A stretch of DNA of 32,344 bases, from contig JAGOFO010000007.1 in assembly GCA_017997155.1 (NCBI GenBank), forward strand, positions 1 to 32,344, in the 5' to 3' direction. The translations under genes were made by a program, and so were the position numbers. The DNA comes from Myxococcota bacterium. Lineage in GTDB: Bacteria; Myxococcota_A; UBA9042; DTJE01. Below the pieces are notes generated by a model. It was not told where the DNA came from and did no database searches. It worked only from the letters and a program-made list of their open reading frames with translations. This document shows, one piece after another, positions 68-18,281 of the stretch (within the stretch, counting starts at the first letter, position 1; each line of letters opens with the position of its first letter).

Positions 68-1185
<1,118 letters not shown>

Positions 1186-1221
1186 AAGGTAATCCGGGAC
1201 GCGCCCGCGGGCCGGTTGCGT

Positions 1222-1250
1222 TTGACCATCGGCCACTTACCTGATAAAAC
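1222..1250 (+). promoter_or_regulatory. Candidate sigma-70 promoter for the 1292 lipoprotein
   Basis: TTGACC (1222-1227) and TAAAAC (1245-1250) are separated by 17 bases. This is back to back with the mreB promoter candidate, as expected for a divergent gene pair. Confidence 0.45.
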
Positions 1251-1291
1251 TACGACTTCGGAAATCCGTGAAAACCGGAGGAGAACCCCAG

Positions 1292-1810
1292 ATGTCAACG
1301 CGCACCATTTTCATGACCCTGTCCTGCATCGCGGTGATTGCCCTCGCGGCCGGCTGCTCCGGCTCGAAGAAGGCTGGTGAACAGGTGGCGTACGAACTGC
1401 CGGCGAAGCCCGACCTCCGCGCCAAATCGATCCCCGAAAAGTACGACGACGGCGTCCTGACCGTGTCCGGCGTGGTGAAGAATGCCGCCACCCTGAACGG
1501 GAATCCGGTGAAGGTTCGCGGCAAGGTCGCGAAGGTGAACGTCTGCACGCCCGGCGAGGTTTGCGCGGCCGAGGCGTCGGTCTTTTTGACCGACGATGTT
1601 GAAAACGCAAAGCGACTCCTGACCGTGATGGACCCGAGCGAGGGCCTTTACCATGATCTGGCCAAGGAATTCCAGGTCGGGCAGCTGGTGACGGTCGAGG
1701 GCAAGCTGTCGATGTGGTCGCTGACCGGCAGAACCATCAACATGGACGGGATCCTGCTGCTGGACAAGCCGAAAGAGGCTGAAACCGAGGAAGCCAAAGT
1801 CGAGAAGTAG
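1292..1810 (+). CDS. Small predicted lipoprotein, possible OB-fold
   Basis: A 172-residue protein with a lipoprotein signal peptide: MSTRTIF, a hydrophobic stretch, then the lipobox LAAGC with the lipidated Cys at residue 22. It is therefore expected to be anchored in the outer or inner membrane, facing the periplasm. The mature part reads VSGVVKNAATLNGNPVKVRGKV, then GQLVTVEGKLSMW, a pattern of short beta strands that resembles OB-fold nucleic-acid/oligosaccharide-binding domains of the tRNA_anti-like kind; that is inference only. Two Cys (VNVCTPGEVCAAE) could form a disulphide. The tail is Glu/Lys-rich. The ATG at 1292 is preferred over an upstream GTG because GGAGGA sits eight bases before it. 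Function unknown. Confidence 0.8.
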   Translation: MSTRTIFMTLSCIAVIALAAGCSGSKKAGEQVAYELPAKPDLRAKSIPEKYDDGVLTVSGVVKNAATLNGNPVKVRGKVAKVNVCTPGEVCAAEASVFLTDDVENAKRLLTVMDPSEGLYHDLAKEFQVGQLVTVEGKLSMWSLTGRTINMDGILLLDKPKEAETEEAKVEK

Positions 1811-1816
1811 GCCCGG

Positions 1817-2665
1817 TCAATCCTTCCTGAAGATAGCCTGACCCAATCTTATTTTTGAACCTATACCCGGATGAACCGGCCTGCAGCCACCGTCGCCGAC
1901 CAGGACTATGACCGTGGAACCGAGGTTGAACACACCATACTCGTCTCCGCGTGTGCACGGCAGCGGATCTGTGTAGATCGAGGTTCCCCACGCCTTCTTC
2001 GTGTTCGAGACGACGTCGGAAAACGAAAGGGAGATCCGGCCGACGCTGGTGGCCCCAACCATTACCAGCCCGACGCGCGTGGAACCGGTATCTATGATCC
2101 CGGAAACGCGTTCGTTGGCGCAGAAGACGTTGTCGAACAAGCCAAGCACGCGAGGAGCAACCGACAGCAGTCCGCCGGGAATGTGACGAAGGCTGCGGAC
2201 ATGTCCCGAAACCGGAAAATGAACACGATGATAGTCGCCAGGGCTGAGATAGATGGTCAGATACCACCCTCCATCGAAGCGCGACGCATCGGTCGGACCG
2301 GAAGAAGATTCCCCGAGCAGTTCGGAGAGCCGATACTCGATGCCTTTGGCCTGGAAAAGCATGCCGTCGGTTATTCTGCCAGCCGTCTGAACCATGCCGT
2401 CGCAGGGTGAGATCACCGTCGAGGGATCCGGATCCAGCGGTCTGGCGTCAGCCTTGAGGCGCCTGGTGAAGAATGCGTTGAAAGAATCGAACCCGCCGGG
2501 AGGGATCACGGCCTCTTCCAGGTTGACCCCGAACCTTTTCACCCAGAAACTCATCAGGGCCGACTGGGCCGGTGTCCATCCGAGATCGGACAAATGACCA
2601 AGAATTCTGGACTGAGTCCGTGTTGAAACGGCGCGGAAGGCCATCTTCCTGAGCTGACGCAGCAT
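1817..2665 (-). CDS. psd: Phosphatidylserine decarboxylase
   Basis: This 282-residue membrane-associated enzyme converts phosphatidylserine to phosphatidylethanolamine, the last step of the main PE pathway. Visible hallmarks are SPCDG (Asp89), DYHRVHFP (His146/His149) and LGST at 248-251. The family self-cleaves within LGST, and the Ser (250) becomes the N-terminal pyruvoyl cofactor of the alpha chain; Asp, His and Ser form the processing triad. The open frame extends further upstream to 3172 but overlaps the kinase gene out of frame and is not family-like; MLRQLRKMAF at 2665 follows AGAGG. It starts 14 bases after the PfkB gene and is probably the last gene of a four-gene operon. Confidence 0.95.
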   Translation of the reverse strand: MLRQLRKMAFRAVSTRTQSRILGHLSDLGWTPAQSALMSFWVKRFGVNLEEAVIPPGGFDSFNAFFTRRLKADARPLDPDPSTVISPCDGMVQTAGRITDGMLFQAKGIEYRLSELLGESSSGPTDASRFDGGWYLTIYLSPGDYHRVHFPVSGHVRSLRHIPGGLLSVAPRVLGLFDNVFCANERVSGIIDTGSTRVGLVMVGATSVGRISLSFSDVVSNTKKAWGTSIYTDPLPCTRGDEYGVFNLGSTVIVLVGDGGCRPVHPGIGSKIRLGQAIFRKD

Positions 2666-2679
2666 CGACCGAAGACCTC

Positions 2680-3612
2680 TCAGATGTCCATGTCGGCAAG
2701 TATGCGATCGCCGTCGACGTTTGTCATTTCCACATACGATTTCAATCGTGCCGCTACATCTGACGGCCTCACCCTGCCAAACGCCCGCGGCCCGAATCCC
2801 TCTACGCAGAACGAGGCCATGACCGTGCCGACGGCGAGCGCCCGCCTGACGGCGAAAACGTCGAAATCCGCGATCCGATCCAGATATGACAGGGTGCCAC
2901 CGGCAAAGGAATCGCCGGCGCCGGTCGGATCGACCACCGTCTGAACAGGAAACGCGGGATAGAGCTTGATTCCGGCGGAATCGAACAGGATGGCTCCATG
3001 CTCGCCCTTCTTGATCACAAGCGCCTTCACGCCCATCTTCAAGACCGCGGCCGCGGCATGGAACACGTTGTGTTCGCCGGTGAGCTGCCTCACCTCGTCG
3101 TCGTTCAAGAACAGAAGGCTGGTTCGGGGCAGCATCGACACGAACTCCGCCCTGAACATGTCGATCCAGCACTCGATGGTATCGAGCGCCACAAATCTCG
3201 CGCCCGTCATCTGACGAAGCACCAGCTTCTGAAGGTCCGGCTTGATGTTGCCCAGGCAGACCACGTCGGAATCCCGCAACTCGGGCGGGATCACCGGGCT
3301 GAACTCTGCGAAGACACCCACGGAGGTCTTCAGTGAGTCCCGTCCGATCAGGTCGTCGTGATACCTTGCGTGCCAGCGGAACGTCTCGCCCTGCCGGCGC
3401 TCGATGAACGATGTGTCGATTCCGCGGGCCCGGATAAAGGCCATATCGTCTTCAGGAAAGTCGGTGCCGACAACGCCGACAATGACCGGACGCGCCAGGA
3501 AGGACGCCGCCGTGGAAAACCACGTGGCCGATCCGCCCAGAACCTCAACCGGTTCCCTGCCGGGCAGTTCAATGACATCGTAAGCAACCGAACCGACAAC
3601 AAGAAGACTCAT
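2680..3612 (-). CDS. PfkB/ribokinase-family carbohydrate or nucleoside kinase
   Basis: A 310-residue cytoplasmic kinase of the PfkB fold, which phosphorylates sugars, nucleosides or related alcohols with ATP. The N-terminal glycine motif GGSAT (26-30) and the C-terminal signature DPTGAGDSFAGG (from 228) are both present; Asp234 of GAGD is the expected catalytic base. The substrate cannot be read from the sequence. It sits between mtnP and psd in an apparent operon, so a role in handling ribose or adenosine released by methylthioadenosine breakdown is possible but unproven. The start MSLLVVGSVAYD at 3612 matches the family; the 14 codons upstream do not. Confidence 0.88.
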   Translation of the reverse strand: MSLLVVGSVAYDVIELPGREPVEVLGGSATWFSTAASFLARPVIVGVVGTDFPEDDMAFIRARGIDTSFIERRQGETFRWHARYHDDLIGRDSLKTSVGVFAEFSPVIPPELRDSDVVCLGNIKPDLQKLVLRQMTGARFVALDTIECWIDMFRAEFVSMLPRTSLLFLNDDEVRQLTGEHNVFHAAAAVLKMGVKALVIKKGEHGAILFDSAGIKLYPAFPVQTVVDPTGAGDSFAGGTLSYLDRIADFDVFAVRRALAVGTVMASFCVEGFGPRAFGRVRPSDVAARLKSYVEMTNVDGDRILADMDI

Positions 3613-3680
3613 GGATGACTCCGATATGGACGTCCAGCCTCGGTCACCGGGCAAGAAGCACCTGTGGCGCCCGGGACGAG

Positions 3681-4565
3681 TCAGTCATTCCGGAAATACC
3701 TTCCCACGACCGGCTCCAGACGTTCGATCGCCTCTGCCGGTATGCACTGACGACTGGTCAGAAACGCGTGGCGCAGCGAGTCTCCGCACCCGCAGGGCGA
3801 AGCGGAATCAAGACGCGTGATGGCGCCAAGAATCAGTTCACGGGCACGCGCGGTTCCGGCCGCAAGACGCTCGACCACCGACGCGCACGACACGTCGTCC
3901 TCTTCTTCGTGCCAGCAGTCGAAATCAGTCGGAAGCGCGATGGTCGCGTAGCAGATCTCGGCCTCACGGGCCAGTTTGGCCTCGGTCGCGTTGGTCATGC
4001 CGATCACCGCGACGGAAACCTTTTCGTGCCCTTCGGAAGCGCCGATCTCACGATAGGAATGGGATTCGGCCCGCGACGAAAACTGGGGGCCCTCGATGCA
4101 GACGTATGTGCCGCCGTCAACCACATCCATTCCGATCTGGCTGGCGGTCGCCAGCAGAAGCTCCCTTAACGAGGGACAGAAGGGATCGGCCATGCTGACG
4201 TGGGCGACCAGTCCGTTGCCGAAGAAAGTGTTCTGGCGGTGAATCGTGCGATCGATCAGCTGGTCCACGATGACCGGCCTGGACAGCGCGATATCCTTTC
4301 TCATGCTGCCCACGGCGCTGGCCGAAAAGATCCGATCCACACCCAGTTTCTTCAACGCCCATATGTTCGCGCGACACGGCACTTCAGTCGGGAGAAGACG
4401 GTGTCCGCGTCCATGTCTCGGAAGAAACGCGATCTCGCGGTCTCCCATCCGGCCGACGGTAATCGCGTCAGACGTGGCTCCGAGCGGCGTTGGCACCGTC
4501 ACCTCGTGAACGTCGGTCAGGGAGTCCATGAAGTAGAGACCGGTTCCACCGATTATGCCAATCAT
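3681..4565 (-). CDS. mtnP: S-methyl-5'-thioadenosine phosphorylase
   Basis: A 294-residue enzyme that splits methylthioadenosine with phosphate into adenine and methylthioribose-1-phosphate, recycling the by-product of polyamine and related S-adenosylmethionine-dependent pathways. The start IGIIGGTGLY, the phosphate-binding PRHGRGH (49-55), the CIEGPQFSSRAES segment, IGMTNATEAKLARE and the purine-site TDFDCW are all as in MTA phosphorylases; the TDxDCW form favours MTA phosphorylase over general purine nucleoside phosphorylases. Only 23 bases separate it from the upstream zinc-ribbon gene and 68 from the downstream kinase. The next methionine-salvage enzymes are not in the window. Confidence 0.93.
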   Translation of the reverse strand: MIGIIGGTGLYFMDSLTDVHEVTVPTPLGATSDAITVGRMGDREIAFLPRHGRGHRLLPTEVPCRANIWALKKLGVDRIFSASAVGSMRKDIALSRPVIVDQLIDRTIHRQNTFFGNGLVAHVSMADPFCPSLRELLLATASQIGMDVVDGGTYVCIEGPQFSSRAESHSYREIGASEGHEKVSVAVIGMTNATEAKLAREAEICYATIALPTDFDCWHEEEDDVSCASVVERLAAGTARARELILGAITRLDSASPCGCGDSLRHAFLTSRQCIPAEAIERLEPVVGRYFRND

Positions 4566-4588
4566 CTCAACCCCCGGGCGAAGGTATG

Positions 4589-4861
4589 CTACTCCTCGCC
4601 AATCTCCTCGTCGGACATCTCCTCCGTCGAGTCGAGATCCTCGATCGGAAGCTCTTCGTCCTCAAGGGTCGGAGCGGCATCGTCGTCTTCCTCGATAATC
4701 TCGTCATCAGCGGGAAGCGACACCGCCGCCGTCGTCTCCGGCGGCTTCGACACGTCGGTGCCACACCGCGGGCACAGAGGCGGATTCCGCTTCATGTCGT
4801 AGAACTTGCATCCACACTCGAAACACGAGTGTCTTTCACCGAACTTTTCCCTGTCAACCAT
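4589..4861 (-). CDS. Small zinc-ribbon protein with acidic tail (FYDLN-type)
   Basis: A 90-residue protein. Residues 1-40 hold a two-knuckle zinc ribbon: CFECG then CPRCG, with the sequence CGCKFYDMKRNPPLCPRCG between, close to the 'FYDLN' acid-rich family found widely in proteobacteria. The remaining half is almost entirely Asp/Glu with few positive residues and is probably disordered. The molecular role of this family is not established. It is the first gene of the zinc ribbon-mtnP-pfkB-psd run and is divergent from groEL across a 234-base spacer. Confidence 0.85.
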   Translation of the reverse strand: MVDREKFGERHSCFECGCKFYDMKRNPPLCPRCGTDVSKPPETTAAVSLPADDEIIEEDDDAAPTLEDEELPIEDLDSTEEMSDEEIGEE

Positions 4862-4907
4862 CGAAAACCTCGATTCCAGGAGTCTGTCGAAAGTACAGGA
4901 CGCGCTA

Positions 4908-6688
<1,781 letters not shown>

Positions 6689-11361: not shown

Positions 11362-11391
11362 TTGACAACCGCCGATGGCGGTGGTTAACAT
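11362..11391 (+). promoter_or_regulatory. Promoter of the radical-SAM cassette, with a dyad in the spacer
   Basis: A perfect TTGACA (11362-11367) is followed after 18 bases by TAACAT (11386-11391). The spacer holds the perfect inverted repeat ACCGCC-GAT-GGCGGT (11368-11382), exactly where a repressor or a DNA-distorting activator could act. Transcription would start near 11398, giving a leader of about 60 bases before the first gene. Confidence 0.6.
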
Positions 11392-11456
11392 GCTTGCCGC
11401 ATTCGCCCGGTTCGGGGGACCGCGGCAACCAACCGAATTATCTGGAGGACACTGGA

Positions 11457-11984
11457 ATGCCCGCAAAAAAGGCCGATTCAAGGTCTGAATTCAAGGCGAC
11501 CGTGAAAGGCGATTCTGCCGTGATCAGATTTCACAAGTCACTCTACTCGACGGACGCCCTCTTCGGAACGGCTTTCGTTTTCCTGGATCGTTGCTACGTT
11601 CACTGCGATCTCGCCGATGACGACCATATCGAGGTCGTTCTGACTCCGCGTACAAATTCGAAGTGGTCCCTGGCCGAACTGGCGGGCGAGTTCAAGAACG
11701 AGATGGTGAACCAGGCCCTGCGGTTCAAGCTGGCCAGGCAGACCGAAAAGGTCAGGACCATGATAGTCGGCCGCGCGATCGGCGAATCGATTCCCCCGGA
11801 CGGTCAGCAGACGCCAGCGCCGATCGCCGCCACGGTTCCGGACCTGCCCCCCGAGGTTGCCAAGCTTCTCAGCGAAGAAGAAGAGAGCCTGGATTTTCTG
11901 GACGATCCTTTCGGGATCGCGATCCCCTGGGAGGAAAAGTACAAGAAGGACGAGTCTGCGCGCGGCGAAGGCGGCAAGCAGTAA
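11457..11984 (+). CDS. HxsD-like protein with acidic C-terminal extension
   Basis: A 175-residue soluble protein. Residues 21-108 fit the HxsD component of His-Xaa-Ser type peptide-modification systems as I remember it: a Y-x(3)-A-x(3)-AF pattern, FLDRCYVHCDL, IEVVLTP, then GEFKNEMVNQALRFKLARQTEKVRTMIV. HxsD proteins accompany paired radical-SAM maturases; their exact job is not settled. The extra 65 residues (PPDGQQTPAPIAA..., LSEEEESLDFLDDPFGIAIP) are Pro- and acid-rich and unusual for so small a family. ATG 11457 has GGAGG upstream; earlier in-frame codons run back into the tRNA and are excluded. It is the first gene of the cassette. No signal peptide. Confidence 0.7.
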   Translation: MPAKKADSRSEFKATVKGDSAVIRFHKSLYSTDALFGTAFVFLDRCYVHCDLADDDHIEVVLTPRTNSKWSLAELAGEFKNEMVNQALRFKLARQTEKVRTMIVGRAIGESIPPDGQQTPAPIAATVPDLPPEVAKLLSEEEESLDFLDDPFGIAIPWEEKYKKDESARGEGGKQ

Positions 11985-12026
11985 CAGCTGGCTTTCCGTT
12001 AGGATTCAATCAGTCCAGGGGGACAC

Positions 12027-12242
12027 ATGAAGACCAGGTTGCACAAAAAGATATACCCGGCGCGCGCTGTCAAAACAGCGGTCGCGGCGTTCTCCGAGGT
12101 CGCTTCGATATCGACTTTGCGCGATGGCGACTACACGATCGTCGATCTGCAGTCGGGCGATGCGGCCGATGACGCCGAATTTATGGGCGAGTTCGAGAAC
12201 TTCGTCCTGGGCGAAACCATCTCCATGCGAGGCGTGAAATGA
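12027..12242 (+). CDS. Short HxsD-like protein or leader-like peptide (71 residues)
   Basis: This 71-residue protein lines up by eye with the core of the preceding gene product: R-L-HKKIY against R-F-HKSLY, then A-x(3)-A-x(2)-AF, DGDYTIVDL against DDDHIEVVL, and GEFENFVL against GEFKNEMV. It ends just after that motif, so it lacks the terminal helix of HxsD. It has no Cys, one His and few candidate modification repeats, so it looks more like a partner protein or a recognition domain than a classical precursor, but a substrate role is not excluded. SD AGGGGGA precedes ATG 12027, and its stop overlaps the next start (ATGA), implying translational coupling to the radical-SAM enzyme. Confidence 0.65.
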   Translation: MKTRLHKKIYPARAVKTAVAAFSEVASISTLRDGDYTIVDLQSGDAADDAEFMGEFENFVLGETISMRGVK

Positions 12243-13723
12243 CCGGGAAGCCCGAAAGAAACCTGATTCGTTACCGGCAGGTCGGCGACAGCTTCGTCGT
12301 GACCAATGACGCCGGAGAGTTCATCGTCTTGAATAAGGACGAGATGGACCTTCTTGCGGCAGGCAAGGTCGAGGCCGAATCCGATCTCGAGCGACGCCTG
12401 CTCGAAAAGCACATGCTGATCGCGGGCGAGGAAGGCATCGACACGGCCAGCGAAGCATACGGGCGCAAGATGTCCTACCTGTACCGCGGCCCGGTCCTTC
12501 ACATCATGGTGGTGACGCTGCGCTGCAACCAGGTCTGCCGCTATTGCCATGCAAGCCGCGCCTCGCTGGGCGAGACAGAGACCGATATGTCGATTTCGAC
12601 CGCTGAAAAAGTCGTGGATATCGCGATGCGCTCGCCTTCCGACACGATCACTATCGAATTCCAGGGCGGCGAACCGCTCGTGAACTGGGAGACGGTTCAG
12701 CATGTGGTCGAGTACGGTTCGATGAAGGCTATGGCCGCGGGCAAGCGGGTCATGTTCTCGCTGGTTTCGAATCTTTCCCTGATGGACGACGAGAAGCTTG
12801 CCTATCTGATCGAAAAACGGGTCCAGATCTCGACGTCGCTGGACGGTCCCAAGGACATCCACGACGGAAACCGCCGGCTGTCCGGCGCCAGCGCGCATGA
12901 CAAATGCGTTTACTGGATGGATCGAATCAACAATGCCTACGTTCAGGCAGGACTCGACCCCAAGCTGTACCACGTCGAGGCCCTGGCGACGATCACCCGG
13001 GAACACTTCGGACGCGCGAAGGAACTTGTCGACGAATATGTTGCGCGCGGCTGCCGGGCGATCTTCATGCGACCGCTGAATCCGTTCGGCTACGCCAAGA
13101 AGGCCGAGGAAACGGAAGGCTACCCGGCCGAAGACTTCCTCAAGTTCTACAACGAGGCGCTGGACTACATCCTTGAGCTCAACAGGCAGGGTGTCGAGGT
13201 CATGGAGCGCCTGGCCGCCATCTTCCTTACCAAGATCATGACCCCGGACGATCCCAACTACCTCGATATCCGCAACCCGTGCGGGGCTGGAATCGGACAG
13301 ATCGCCTACAACTACGACGGTTCAATCTTCACGTGCGACGAGGGCCGCATGGTCTTCCAGATGGGAGATGACATCTTCAAGCTGGGGGATGTCGGCAACA
13401 TGACGCTCAAGGACGTCGTGACGCACGACACGGTGAAGACACTGGCGATGGCATCGACCCTGGACTCGATCCCGGGGTGCTCGATGTGCGCCTACAAGCC
13501 GTGGTGCGGGACCTGTCCGGTTTACAACTACGGCGAGCAGGGAAATATTTTCCCGCAGAACAGCACGAATCAGCGATGCCGGATATACATGGGCGTGCAG
13601 GATCGACTGATGCGCCATTTTGTCGAGAACGACAACGAGACGATGGCCATCTTCAATCGCTGGGTCGAGGTCAAGGAACGAACCGAGTACCTTCACGACG
13701 GCCGCAAGGACTCATGCGGCTAG
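12239..13723 (+). CDS. HxsB-like radical-SAM/SPASM peptide maturase
   Basis: A 494-residue radical S-adenosylmethionine enzyme. An N-terminal segment (about 8-60: RYRQVGDSFVVTNDAGEFIVL) precedes the radical-SAM core, whose CxxxCxxC is Cys96-Cys100-Cys103; EFQGGEPLVNWE is the SAM-binding GGE motif and STSLDGP is typical of the family. The C-terminus carries a SPASM-type domain with Cys348, 366, 414, 417, 423, 426 and 447, which should bind two auxiliary iron-sulphur clusters. PVLHIMVVTLRCNQ and the NDAGEF start resemble HxsB of the His-Xaa-Ser system most closely. Such enzymes cross-link or otherwise alter side chains of ribosomal peptides. It overlaps the small upstream gene by four bases. 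No His-Xaa-Ser repeat protein is encoded nearby. Confidence 0.82.
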   Translation: MTGKPERNLIRYRQVGDSFVVTNDAGEFIVLNKDEMDLLAAGKVEAESDLERRLLEKHMLIAGEEGIDTASEAYGRKMSYLYRGPVLHIMVVTLRCNQVCRYCHASRASLGETETDMSISTAEKVVDIAMRSPSDTITIEFQGGEPLVNWETVQHVVEYGSMKAMAAGKRVMFSLVSNLSLMDDEKLAYLIEKRVQISTSLDGPKDIHDGNRRLSGASAHDKCVYWMDRINNAYVQAGLDPKLYHVEALATITREHFGRAKELVDEYVARGCRAIFMRPLNPFGYAKKAEETEGYPAEDFLKFYNEALDYILELNRQGVEVMERLAAIFLTKIMTPDDPNYLDIRNPCGAGIGQIAYNYDGSIFTCDEGRMVFQMGDDIFKLGDVGNMTLKDVVTHDTVKTLAMASTLDSIPGCSMCAYKPWCGTCPVYNYGEQGNIFPQNSTNQRCRIYMGVQDRLMRHFVENDNETMAIFNRWVEVKERTEYLHDGRKDSCG

Positions 13724-13787
13724 CCTGGGCGCGTTCAAACTGGCACGGCCGACCCCATGAACGACCGGTGCCCCGGGGCAGCCTCGG

Positions 13788-14696
13788 ATGATGTCGGACA
13801 ATCCAGTCAGGGCAGTCCTGAAAGTCACCTATTCCTGCAACTCCATGTGTCTTTTCTGCCGCGCGGCGGACTACCGTGGTTCGGTCCCGGACGAGCCGGC
13901 CGAGACCATTCTAAAAAAGGCGCTGGCCGCGAAAAACGCAGGGGCGTCGATGATCCTGTTTTCCGGGGGCGAGCCGACCCTTCGGCGTGACCTGTTCCTG
14001 CTTGCCAGGGGCGTCAGGGCTCTCGGGATGGACTTCGGTCTGATCACGAACTGCGGAATGCTGGGCAACCCCGACTATCTTGGCAGGATGCTCTCCCTGG
14101 GCCTGAAGTACGTCCACACCTCCCTGCACGGCGCCTCCGCTGAAACACATCGCTCAATCACCGGCGCCGACACATTCAACGCGGTCCTGCGATCGCTGGC
14201 GGCCCTTTCCGGGCAGGGTGTCGAACTGCACGTCAACACGGTGCTCAACAGGCGAAACGTGCGCGAACTGGCCGCCATCGGAGACCTGGTCGCTCCATTC
14301 GCGCCGATCACGCACAAGCTGTGCCTGATGGAACCTCGCGGGCTGTTCCAGGATAACGAGGCCGATCTGGCGATTCAGCCTGAACTGGCCGGGCGCGCGG
14401 GGTGCGATGAGGTCGCCAGGACCGCAAAGCGATATCCGGAGAGCGGCTTCAAAACGGTCGTCGAGGGTTTCCCTCTCTGCCAGATCCGCACGGCGCTCGA
14501 CTCGGTGTCGAATCTGCTCGAACACAACATCGTGTTCATGAGCGAAGGTTTCGAGGACGGCATCTACAAGTCCGATCACGGTGACAGGCAATTCACCGAT
14601 ATCTGCGACTCCTGCTCGAAGCGAAACGAGTGCCCGGGTGTTTATCCCGGCTATGTCGAACGGTACGGGGTCGTCGGATTGAGGGCATTCAGATAG
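13788..14696 (+). CDS. Second radical-SAM enzyme of the cassette
   Basis: A 302-residue radical-SAM protein with CxxxCxxC at Cys17-Cys21-Cys24 close to the N-terminus, FSGGEPTLRRD as the SAM-binding GGE motif, and SLHGASAETHRSITG typical of the MoaA/PqqE-like branch. Toward the end PLC (Cys231) and CDSCSKRNEC (Cys273, 276, 282) followed by PGVYPGYVERYG form a compact four-Cys auxiliary-cluster motif. It takes the place HxsC holds in Hxs systems, but its short N-terminus and the PGVY...ERYG ending are closer to the general MoaA-like family than to my memory of HxsC. Start: tandem ATG at 13788/13791, weak SD. It follows the HxsB-like gene by 64 bases on the same strand. Confidence 0.8.
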   Translation: MMSDNPVRAVLKVTYSCNSMCLFCRAADYRGSVPDEPAETILKKALAAKNAGASMILFSGGEPTLRRDLFLLARGVRALGMDFGLITNCGMLGNPDYLGRMLSLGLKYVHTSLHGASAETHRSITGADTFNAVLRSLAALSGQGVELHVNTVLNRRNVRELAAIGDLVAPFAPITHKLCLMEPRGLFQDNEADLAIQPELAGRAGCDEVARTAKRYPESGFKTVVEGFPLCQIRTALDSVSNLLEHNIVFMSEGFEDGIYKSDHGDRQFTDICDSCSKRNECPGVYPGYVERYGVVGLRAFR

Positions 14697-14720: not shown

Positions 14721-16901
14721 CTAACGGGCAACCTGCTTTCCCATCCTGACCGGAACCGATTCCTGGGACACCACGGTGCAGTGCATGTTCACATCGTTGT
14801 ACTCGAAATCACTGGAGTAATCGAACGGCTTGCCGTCTGCGCCAAGTACGTAGGCGCTCAATTCGACCTCAATGGTGTCCGCGTCAAAGAAATGCGGAGA
14901 CCTGGAATCCGGTGGAGTCGGCTCGGGGTTGCCCAGATATGGCGTGGGGAAGCCTTCCGGGAAGACCGGAAGCGTCACGGAAGAGCGGTCGGGCGGAACG
15001 AAGAATTCCCAGAGCGCATGGGAACGCGGCCCGCCAAGGGTTCCGAATTTGCCTTCACCGTCCACGAACCATCTGTTCTCAACCGCGGAGGTTAGATAGT
15101 TCAGACGCAGAATGTAAAGGTCGGGACTGACGGGATTTGACACCGGACGCCAGCGAATCTCCCCGGTAAACAGGTCGGGGGACACCGTGTCCAGCGGCCT
15201 GTCGGGCGGCACGACCGCCGGCTCGAGCAACTCGGGCAGTTCAAGCCACGCGGACGGCGAGTCCAGATGCACGGTATCTCCGGCTTCGACACCAGGCCTT
15301 ACCGGAGTTGAAATCCCCGGCGGATCCCCGGACTTGTATGAAGCGCGGCTCGCCAGGCCGACCGCCAGGTTCGTTATGCGCAGACCAAGGTTCTTCAGGA
15401 CGGGATCGTCGGGATCCGGGAATTTGATCTCGATCGGATTCTGAAAACCTTCCCGGTTATAGTCGCCGTTAATCGAAACGAATATGAAACCCTCGCCGCC
15501 GGTATCGATCACCGGCATGGCGAGTGCATTCGGCATCGGTGCGCCGGTTTTGTAGTCGGTCGGAAGATTGCCGAGGTACATCTGCACCGCGTCCTCCTCC
15601 TGGGAGGAAAGATCGATGTTCATCAGTATGTCGGCCTCATTGACCTGGCCAGGCTTGACGTTGACCCGGGCAATCCCAAGCGCGAGCGGCCTGAAGTCGA
15701 TCTTGTAGGGATCGCTGATCGTCGTGAGCGGATCGGCGACCGTTCCACCGAGCGCGAACACCAGATGCTGACCGGCCGGGACATCGGACAGAGTGAACAC
15801 TGCATACTTGCATGCATTGTCCTTGAGCGCCTGAACCGGATCGGAATACAGGCAGAGCGGCATGTTTCCCGGCACGCCGCCGTCGCCCGGCTTCTCAAGG
15901 ACACTACCCATGGACATCGATGAGAGTGGTCTGCCATTGATCGCGGTCGAGACAATCGCGACCGCGATCCTGTCATCGCCGATAAGACTTGATGAGGACG
16001 GCAGCGGTTCTAGGCCACCCTCGCCCAGGAACCCCGAAACGAGGCCTTCGATCTGCCCGAACCCTGATGCGGCATCCGAAGCAACCACGTCGAGCGGATC
16101 AAGGACGACCGACACCGAGGCGCCGGAAATGCCCAGATACGTGACGTACCTGTGCCCTGGCGCTCCGACCGTGACATCGTAACTCGAAACCAGCGACGAA
16201 TCGAAAAACTCCACGACGCCGGCCGGACCGGTCGTCTGGAACGGAACGGAGCCAGTCCCGGCATCCACGAACACGGAGGCGCCTTCAAAAGGTCTCAAAG
16301 CTCCGTTACAGGTGCGCTGCAACGCGGTCACCTTGACGTGGCCGTTCGCCGGGCCAGCGCCCTGGTCGGGTTCCGTGTTGACGCCAGGAACGGCAAGATG
16401 CTTGAACGAAAGATCGATACTGGCCTTGATCTTGTCGACCCTTCCACCGAGGTTCTGACTCTCAGCTTTAAGGACGGTCTCGGCTTTATGCGGGGAACAT
16501 GCCGTCAACCTTCCGGAGCCGGTATCGTCGGTCGTCACCTCACCGAGGGCGCCCAACTCCCACGAGACCGAGACCTTGGCATTTCCAAGACCGAACCCGC
16601 GTCCATCCAGCACCCTAAAGCCCACAATAACGCAGCGATCTCCGTCTTCGTTCTCGAATGCGGGACTCGCTGTAAGCCTGATCTGCGGATCTCCTGAAAG
16701 CGGATCGTCGTCCCGGCCGTCTGGAACACCATCGTTGTCCGTATCGGATATCGACGAACCGGTTCCGAACAGCAATTCCTGAAGATCCGAAAGGCCGTCG
16801 CCGTCGGAATCGACCCCTGGCCCGCGACCACAGGATGTCACTGACAAAAGCCCTGAAAACAGGATCAGAACCGGCAGCGACATGCGTAAGCATCGAGTCA
16901 T
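14721..16901 (-). CDS. Large surface lipoprotein with thrombospondin type-3-like calcium repeats
   Basis: A 726-residue predicted lipoprotein: hydrophobic signal then lipobox SVTSC with Cys24. The mature start DSDGDGLSDLQELLFGT...SDTDNDGVPDGRDDDP is a pair of Asp-rich calcium-binding loops of the thrombospondin type-3 kind. The rest is beta-rich with a carboxypeptidase-regulatory-like segment (VKVTALQRTCNGALRPFEGASVFVDAG) and no enzyme motif I recognise. Its ATG shares one base with the FadL stop (TGATG), so the two are translationally coupled and the protein may work with that porin at the cell surface. An alternative start is Met7 (16883). Convergent with the radical-SAM cassette, 24 bases away. 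Confidence 0.8.
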   Translation of the reverse strand: MTRCLRMSLPVLILFSGLLSVTSCGRGPGVDSDGDGLSDLQELLFGTGSSISDTDNDGVPDGRDDDPLSGDPQIRLTASPAFENEDGDRCVIVGFRVLDGRGFGLGNAKVSVSWELGALGEVTTDDTGSGRLTACSPHKAETVLKAESQNLGGRVDKIKASIDLSFKHLAVPGVNTEPDQGAGPANGHVKVTALQRTCNGALRPFEGASVFVDAGTGSVPFQTTGPAGVVEFFDSSLVSSYDVTVGAPGHRYVTYLGISGASVSVVLDPLDVVASDAASGFGQIEGLVSGFLGEGGLEPLPSSSSLIGDDRIAVAIVSTAINGRPLSSMSMGSVLEKPGDGGVPGNMPLCLYSDPVQALKDNACKYAVFTLSDVPAGQHLVFALGGTVADPLTTISDPYKIDFRPLALGIARVNVKPGQVNEADILMNIDLSSQEEDAVQMYLGNLPTDYKTGAPMPNALAMPVIDTGGEGFIFVSINGDYNREGFQNPIEIKFPDPDDPVLKNLGLRITNLAVGLASRASYKSGDPPGISTPVRPGVEAGDTVHLDSPSAWLELPELLEPAVVPPDRPLDTVSPDLFTGEIRWRPVSNPVSPDLYILRLNYLTSAVENRWFVDGEGKFGTLGGPRSHALWEFFVPPDRSSVTLPVFPEGFPTPYLGNPEPTPPDSRSPHFFDADTIEVELSAYVLGADGKPFDYSSDFEYNDVNMHCTVVSQESVPVRMGKQVAR

Positions 16902-18235
16902 CAGAATCCAAACCTCAGTGATACACCCGAATTCAGGAACCAGCCGCCGCCGCCCACCGCGGGATAACCTGGATTGCCCGGAATCATTGAAATCTTGACG
17001 TCGGTGTTGTCGATGACGGCCGCGGCCATGAAGTGGGCATCGACCGATATCTTCGGCCCTCCGACGTGCTCGGCGTCGAAACCGATCCCGAACGAACCGG
17101 AGAACTGATCTCCTCCGAGCAGGTTTGTCTCGCCGGACTGGACCGGCAGAGGACTCTGCGCCCAACCGAATCCGGCACGCAACGCCACGGCCTTGTGAGG
17201 ACGATACTCCGCGCCCAGTCGAACGGTGACACTGTCACGCAAACCAGGTGACGGAATCGACGAAGAACCAATCTCATCCTCGCGGCCCGGATCCGAGAAC
17301 AGCTTGACCTCGGGCGAGGACATGCGGTACCCGCTGAACAGATAGCAGATCACGTCGGCCGAAACCGAGTAGTCATCGGCCTTCCATCCGGCGCCGAACG
17401 AAAACTCGTGCGGAGTCCAGTAAGCGATCGCGTTCACCATGAGATAGATCGGGTTTATGCTGTTTGAGACCGTTGCGTCGACTGGCAGTTCAATATGGGT
17501 GCGATTAGCGCCCCGCCAGGAAAAGCCAAGCGTAAGCCCCCGAATCGGTTCAAAAAGCAGACCCACATTCGCCGAAACGCGATAACCGACGGTTATCCCG
17601 AGATAGTTCTGCGGATCGGCTGAGTCCAGGTCCACGCTGACCAACCCGCCAACGGAAGGAAGGACCGACGCTCCGACACCGACCATCAACCACTTCCAGC
17701 GTCCCGCCATCGCGACGTTCACAACCAGACGGGTATTGCGCTTTTCGTAGAACGGAAAGTTCGCCTCGGTCGGCCCGAGCGCCTCGACCGAGTACAGTTC
17801 GGTCGCCGGAGTCTGAACCTGAAGCCCGAAGAACAGGTGCCGATCGAGTCCTTTTCCCAGCGGGATGGGTGCGGCGACGCCGCCCTCAAGAAAGACGGTC
17901 GCGCGATCGAAACGACGCTGCGAGACGGGAGAGGTAGTCTTCGTAACGTCATCGAACTCATTGAACCGGGCGTTCAGCCAGGGCCTGTATACCGAAACAC
18001 CCAGACCGAACTCCACCCGTTCCATCAAGCCGAGCGCGGCGGGGTTGTAATAGGTGGCGCTGTAGGAGTCCGCCGTTGCGGTTCCGGTGCCCCCCATGGC
18101 GATTCCGACCGAACCGGAACCGAACTGATCCATGGGATTCGACAGGGCCGGGGTGGACACGAAATACGTGGCGGCCAGCGTCACCGCGAGCAGCACAACG
18201 AGGTTTCGCCTTCGAACGTCTGTCGACAAAGCCAT
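16901..18235 (-). CDS. FadL/OmpP1-type outer-membrane transport protein
   Basis: A 444-residue outer-membrane beta-barrel. A signal peptide (hydrophobic VVLLAVTLAATYFVSTPALS) is followed by NPMDQFGSGSVGIAMGGTGTATADSYSATYYNPAALG, the N-terminal 'hatch' with the NPAAL motif of the FadL/TodX family, which passes long-chain fatty acids and other hydrophobic compounds. The chain continues as alternating amphipathic strands and ends in SLRFGF, with a terminal Phe as usual for barrels. The frame opens at a TTG (18256); I prefer the ATG pair at 18238/18235, with AGGG just upstream. Co-transcribed with the lipoprotein downstream and divergent from the TULIP-like lipoprotein. Confidence 0.88.
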   Translation of the reverse strand: MALSTDVRRRNLVVLLAVTLAATYFVSTPALSNPMDQFGSGSVGIAMGGTGTATADSYSATYYNPAALGLMERVEFGLGVSVYRPWLNARFNEFDDVTKTTSPVSQRRFDRATVFLEGGVAAPIPLGKGLDRHLFFGLQVQTPATELYSVEALGPTEANFPFYEKRNTRLVVNVAMAGRWKWLMVGVGASVLPSVGGLVSVDLDSADPQNYLGITVGYRVSANVGLLFEPIRGLTLGFSWRGANRTHIELPVDATVSNSINPIYLMVNAIAYWTPHEFSFGAGWKADDYSVSADVICYLFSGYRMSSPEVKLFSDPGREDEIGSSSIPSPGLRDSVTVRLGAEYRPHKAVALRAGFGWAQSPLPVQSGETNLLGGDQFSGSFGIGFDAEHVGGPKISVDAHFMAAAVIDNTDVKISMIPGNPGYPAVGGGGWFLNSGVSLRFGF

Positions 18236-18281
18236 CATACCCTGTTGATGAAGCAAACCGCCCAGAAATCCGGCGCGCAGT

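Follow-up and report, generated by a model that had tools for sequence, protein, structure and literature searches.

Known His-Xaa-Ser systems

The closest described counterpart of the locus analyzed here is the Hxs system, with its families HxsA (TIGR03979), HxsB (TIGR03978), HxsC (TIGR03977), and HxsD (TIGR03976). A passage of PMC9062424 that cites Haft and Basu describes HxsB and HxsC as putatively maturing the His-Xaa-Ser peptide, and no Hxs system with a known product was found in the literature searched. Our locus shares with this system HxsB and HxsD above the family cut-offs, a genome-encoded precursor with His-Xaa-Ser repeats, and paired radical-SAM enzymes. It differs in that the precursor is of the HxsA4 type and sits at a separate locus, an HxsC above the cut-off is absent, and there are an extra HxsD paralogue, a conserved HxsD tail, and four more HxsC-like enzymes elsewhere.

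Along similar lines, an unannotated gut contig filed as a phage (MT837156.1, positions 663 to 6238; L121) carries a full HxsA3-type system with the genes for HxsD, a second HxsD-like protein, HxsC, HxsB, and a repeat protein. Like our system, it has two HxsD-type proteins and a KKxIQxxLxxEEGxIT leader; in contrast, everything lies at a single locus, its HxsC falls in the canonical clade, the (GSH)n...W arrangement is missing, and the tail is only faintly similar. Among solved structures, the closest relatives of HxsB by sequence are CteB, the SCIFF maturase (5wgg), and the anaerobic sulfatase-maturating enzyme (4k37), but their substrates differ and their function is not transferable to HxsB.

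A four-gene cassette

The window, that is, the whole stretch of 32,344 nt that we analyzed, corresponds to bases 1 to 32344 of contig C132, part of a 2.64-Mb assembly in 291 contigs that is 87% complete. At positions 11362 to 14696, a promoter-like site is followed in a row by the genes for HxsD, an HxsD-like protein, HxsB, and the radical-SAM enzyme P4, all on the plus strand. The elements listed in the first-pass annotation (promoter, two HxsD-like genes, an HxsB-like SPASM enzyme, a second radical-SAM enzyme, and an ATGA overlap) are all present. The sigma-70-like promoter TTGACA-18-TAACAT (11362 to 11391) agrees with 10 of 12 consensus positions and is a consensus match only, the scan having given 2 such sites in the region versus 0.8 expected.

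The HxsD gene (P0001, 175 aa; 11457 to 11984), with GGAGGA immediately 5' of its ATG, encodes a folded N-terminal domain and a conserved C-terminal tail, and the protein scored 57.7 bits on TIGR03976 (cut-off, 50) in profile scans. The HxsD-like protein (P0002, 71 aa; 12027 to 12242) reached 65.4 bits on NF038315 (cut-off, 41), and its stop codon overlaps the start of HxsB through the ATGA. HxsB (P0003, 494 aa; 12239 to 13723) scored 527.7 bits on TIGR03978 (cut-off, 370) and has an intact CX3CX2C motif at residues 96 to 103 and SPASM cysteines between 348 and 447. P4 (P0004, 302 aa; 13788 to 14696) is HxsC-like, with an intact CX3CX2C at residues 17 to 24 and a CX2CX5C at 273 to 282. In this profile check of the four proteins, which had been proposed beforehand, three pass the curated Hxs cut-offs and P4 does not. 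The 71-residue protein had been put forward as a possible substrate; we rejected it as a precursor because it is a conserved paralogue of HxsD and contains no candidate core peptide.

The gene order of the cassette is kept in relatives from the window's family, and the clustering of the four genes is far beyond chance. A search of genome contigs with HxsB matched one metagenome-assembled genome only. Radical-SAM/SPASM enzymes are established as doing radical chemistry on peptide side chains, and by analogy HxsB and the HxsC-like enzymes should do the same here. Five loci of family f6 (L060, L067, L077, L079, and L089) carry a second HxsB paralogue without HxsD neighbors, directly behind a delta-type radical-SAM enzyme (see below); in several of them, this paralogue is flanked by a lipoprotein with CxxCH-like motifs on one side and a cytochrome-rhodanese-like protein on the other.

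Next to the cassette on the minus strand (14721 to 18256), the window encodes a DxDxDG-repeat lipoprotein and a porin of the FadL/OmpP1 type. We considered whether this lipoprotein (14721 to about 16900), with the adjacent porin, could be the substrate or a functional partner, given that most assemblies of the family, even the one with the rearranged locus L045, have it next to the cassette. However, it is missing from f6 genomes, which have the system, and is unlinked to HxsB in f2, f3, f9, and genome G008, while the synteny extends to unrelated genes such as those for ribulose-phosphate epimerase and an ABC-F ATPase. The association is not general; we rejected the pair as the substrate and regard this explanation as highly improbable.

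A remote HxsA4 precursor

Within the 32,344-nt window, the repeat-pattern search found no encoded His-Xaa-Ser repeat protein, in agreement with the first-pass annotation. Its description of the cassette as lacking a His-Xaa-Ser precursor fails at the level of the genome. A DNA pattern of consecutive His-Xaa-Ser units gave 15 matches in the whole genome, all on one strand (the reversed control gave 0), and all 15 fit a single array on contig C223. There, positions 5348 to 5686 of the minus strand encode a 112-aa protein in an intact frame, MASKRVPTFKKRIQDFLSSEEGKITRGQAAAIGTFMLMAGTSGQALASGEAETSAASDFGAQTHCSHASH(GSH)nGSW, in which a leader is followed by HCSHASH(GSH)nGSW. It scored 103.1 bits on the HxsA4 family NF038313 (cut-off, 55). 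Because the genome encodes this HxsA4, the cassette is not precursor-less. The lead to it came from relative G018, in which a 112-aa (HGS)n protein has as neighbors three radical-SAM enzymes, an HxsD-like gene, and an HxsD with the tail. Judged by its sequence, HxsA4 has the usual build of a precursor, a leader plus a repeat core; nearly all intact copies retain the HCSH first repeat and the C-terminal Trp, and the leader is of one type within each family. As for canonical HxsA, none of the 90 relatives had a match at the TIGR03979 cut-off, and the sole match in the own genome (19 bits, contig C165) was discarded as the peptidoglycan-binding domain of an L,D-transpeptidase. Two genes adjoin HxsA4 in most genomes of the family (L215, 5784 to 7676): one encodes a conserved protein of ~190 aa, and the product of the other, 439 aa long, looks like cyclic 2,3-diphosphoglycerate synthetase.

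In a comparison sample of 90 relative genomes, we counted HxsA4 at E values of ≤1e-6 and took as HxsB positive all genomes above the cut-off plus G006, in which HxsB is split across two contigs. The co-occurrence was strict: HxsA4 was present in 50 of 51 genomes with HxsB versus 5 of 39 others (Fisher test, P = 2.6e-18; shared ancestry inflates this and the other Fisher P value given below, and independence is overstated). In the one HxsB genome left (G054, 79% complete), HxsA4 was not found. The five HxsA4 genomes without HxsB comprise two incomplete assemblies with a strong HxsA4 (G010, 68%; G051, 58%) and three with weak repeat matches. This survey of neighborhoods, suggested at the outset, gave recurrence of the cassette within the same family and co-occurrence of HxsA4 with HxsB.

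In 11 genomes from seven other families, HxsA4 starts 77 to 306 nt 3' of the HxsB match. The typical order in those families is HxsD, HxsD-like, HxsB, HxsA4, and then one or two radical-SAM enzymes; in f14 (L095), the enzyme that follows HxsA4 is an ortholog of P4. Since HxsA4 is linked to the cassette neither in the window's family nor in f6, the pairing of enzymes and substrate rests on co-occurrence together with the order in other families. The simplest reading of these gene orders is that HxsA4 either left its place between HxsB and the trailing enzyme or never joined it.

P4 and the other HxsC-like enzymes

P4 obtained 78.7 bits on TIGR03977 against an HxsC cut-off of 267.9, with similar scores on several other families. 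In a tree of HxsC-like enzymes, the P4 group (f1, f2, f14, and f22) falls outside the canonical HxsC clade, and further groups, which we call alpha, beta, gamma, and delta, can be recognized; the tree was built by a quick method and has several long branches, and from it we used the ortholog groups and did not trust the deep order. Neither the own genome nor any of the 90 relatives has an HxsC above the TIGR03977 cut-off. The earlier remark that the second enzyme is unlike HxsC is borne out, and since P4 is both below the HxsC cut-off and outside its clade, the designation as a variant system stands. That annotation had set against itself the case of a canonical hxsA elsewhere in the genome with the cassette genes scoring as ordinary HxsB/C/D. 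This case applies by half: HxsD, the HxsD-like protein, and HxsB are indeed ordinary scorers, and an HxsA4 does lie elsewhere, but P4 does not score as an HxsC. With respect to the NCBIfam pair HxsA4/HxsC4 (NF038313/NF038332), our precursor fits HxsA4; the 500-bit cut-off of HxsC4 was reached by none of the enzymes scanned (P4, 77.9; alpha, 97.4; an enzyme on contig C246, 107).

The own genome encodes one enzyme each of alpha, beta, gamma, and delta, in tandem on contig C182 (L216). A conserved membrane protein resembling prepilin peptidase stands behind this four-enzyme operon (L216, 2277 to 3653; L219, 8927 to 10222; L221, 10726 to 12192). In f3 (L057), orthologs of the C182 enzymes are divergent from HxsD, HxsD-like, and HxsB, and in 19 loci (f6, f10, f16, f23, and f26), alpha and beta are directly upstream of these three genes. 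Alpha is single copy in 48 of the 90 genomes, namely, 47 of 51 with HxsB versus 1 of 39 without (Fisher test, P = 1.1e-19, likewise inflated by shared ancestry). Given that C182 orthologs stand beside the cassette or HxsA4 in other families and that alpha tracks HxsB, the full system likely consists of HxsA4, two proteins of the HxsD type, HxsB, and some five enzymes that are HxsC-like, distributed here over three contigs.

Conceivably, HxsA4 could be matured by the C182 enzymes only, with the window cassette serving another target. The HxsA4 locus of f7 (L139) would suit this: alpha and beta adjoin HxsA4 and the HxsD pair (HxsD and HxsD-like), with three radical-SAM enzymes between the pair and the precursor, but HxsB is absent. 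Against it, HxsA4 lies directly behind HxsB in seven other families, and HxsA4 above the cut-off is always accompanied by HxsB except in the two assemblies of 58 to 68% completeness, so we consider such a division of labor very unlikely.

The conserved tail of HxsD

HxsD ends in a tail with the consensus DFLDDP[LF]GIA[VI]PWE[ED]K[FY], after the folded domain and a variable linker. In the window, the near-invariant motif is DFLDDPFGIAIPWEEKY (residues 146 to 162; 11892 to 11942, plus strand). Among 40 HxsDs, mean pairwise identity reached 92% in the 11-residue tail core, compared with 47% in the domain and 33% in the linker. Because synonymous codons vary at nearly all tail positions, selection on the tail acts at the protein level. 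Searched with a degenerate pattern, the tail was found once, never twice, per genome in 47 of the 90 relatives, all 47 with HxsB, and the reversed pattern gave 0 matches in the same 90. The HxsD tails of f10, f16, f23, and f26 take DDPLEISVPWE-like forms.

The structure model of HxsD, built from a two-row alignment (mean pLDDT, 66.6), predicts a b-b-a-b-b-a domain at about residues 11 to 90 with pLDDT values of 86 to 90, and the tail stretch was modeled at low confidence, as expected of disorder. A search of solved structures with the HxsD profile found no convincing relative (best E value, 0.0067). The top matches in a fold search with the model were RNA-polymerase Rpb11-type subunits (E value, 0.0045; probability, 1.00; TM score of about 0.5 by target length), and among viral models this search returned nothing useful. 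We take the Rpb11/L likeness of the model as a weak lead to a dimerizing fold, which might suit an HxsD/HxsD-like heterodimer, and do not rely on it.

Could the tail itself be the substrate? HxsD would then be a fusion of leader and core, with HxsB and/or P4 modifying residues of DDPLGIAVPWEEK[FY], and there is precedent in PQQ and mycofactocin, cofactors derived from short conserved peptides of a precursor. No other stretch of HxsD is as conserved as the tail, which follows a variable linker, is predicted to be disordered, and occurs once per genome exclusively alongside HxsB. Canonical HxsDs of plasmid loci mostly end shortly past the domain, which also sets the tail apart. However, the same genomes have a proper repeat precursor, and the tail has no Cys, its fixed residues being limited to D, P, I, W, and E. 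In family f15, HxsB occurs (in genome G059 together with HxsA4 and alpha), but a tailed HxsD is absent near HxsB, and a pattern search found none elsewhere. Moreover, three canonical HxsDs show faint look-alikes of the tail, including L120 (LSDPVGFNPQSI) and L121 (DAIAKDWFDEK); both of these loci have an ordinary repeat precursor, which suits a docking element better. Overall, we favor docking or assembly over a substrate role for the tail. We consider it unlikely that the tail serves as an additional substrate, in the form of a core peptide attached to its own recognition domain, with modified HxsD made in addition to the modified (HGS)n peptide; if true, the tail could, for example, carry a cross-link at its fixed Trp or be linked to HxsA4 through the Cys or the C-terminal Trp of the latter.

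A probable split His-Xaa-Ser system

Among the substrates proposed initially, the evidence favors a remote protein by a wide margin, whereas the acidic HxsD tail is more likely a docking element and the 71-residue protein offers no candidate core peptide. We infer, with a probability of roughly 78%, that an HxsA4-type His-Xaa-Ser system is spread here over at least three loci and that the cassette contributes its enzyme half, which acts on the remote HxsA4. HxsD and the HxsD-like protein would pair up, without catalytic activity of their own, to present the precursor or to assemble the complex, and the invariant HxsD tail would most likely serve for docking to one of the radical-SAM enzymes. 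Guided by the conserved KKRIQDFLSSEEGKIT leader of HxsA4, HxsB, P4, and the four C182 enzymes would all act on this one peptide and modify its HCSH(GSH)nGSW repeat region.

The locus thus belongs to a variant of the known His-Xaa-Ser kind. It can be described as a compact set: a simple (HGS)n peptide as the putative substrate, in which a Cys and the C-terminal Trp are fixed, along with HxsB, a pair of HxsD-type proteins, and a family of HxsC-like enzymes. The short conserved motif of HxsD provides a named target for mutation. A precursor can be missed when the search is confined to the surroundings of the radical-SAM gene, and the system is present in about half of the 90 sampled genomes, all from one phylum.
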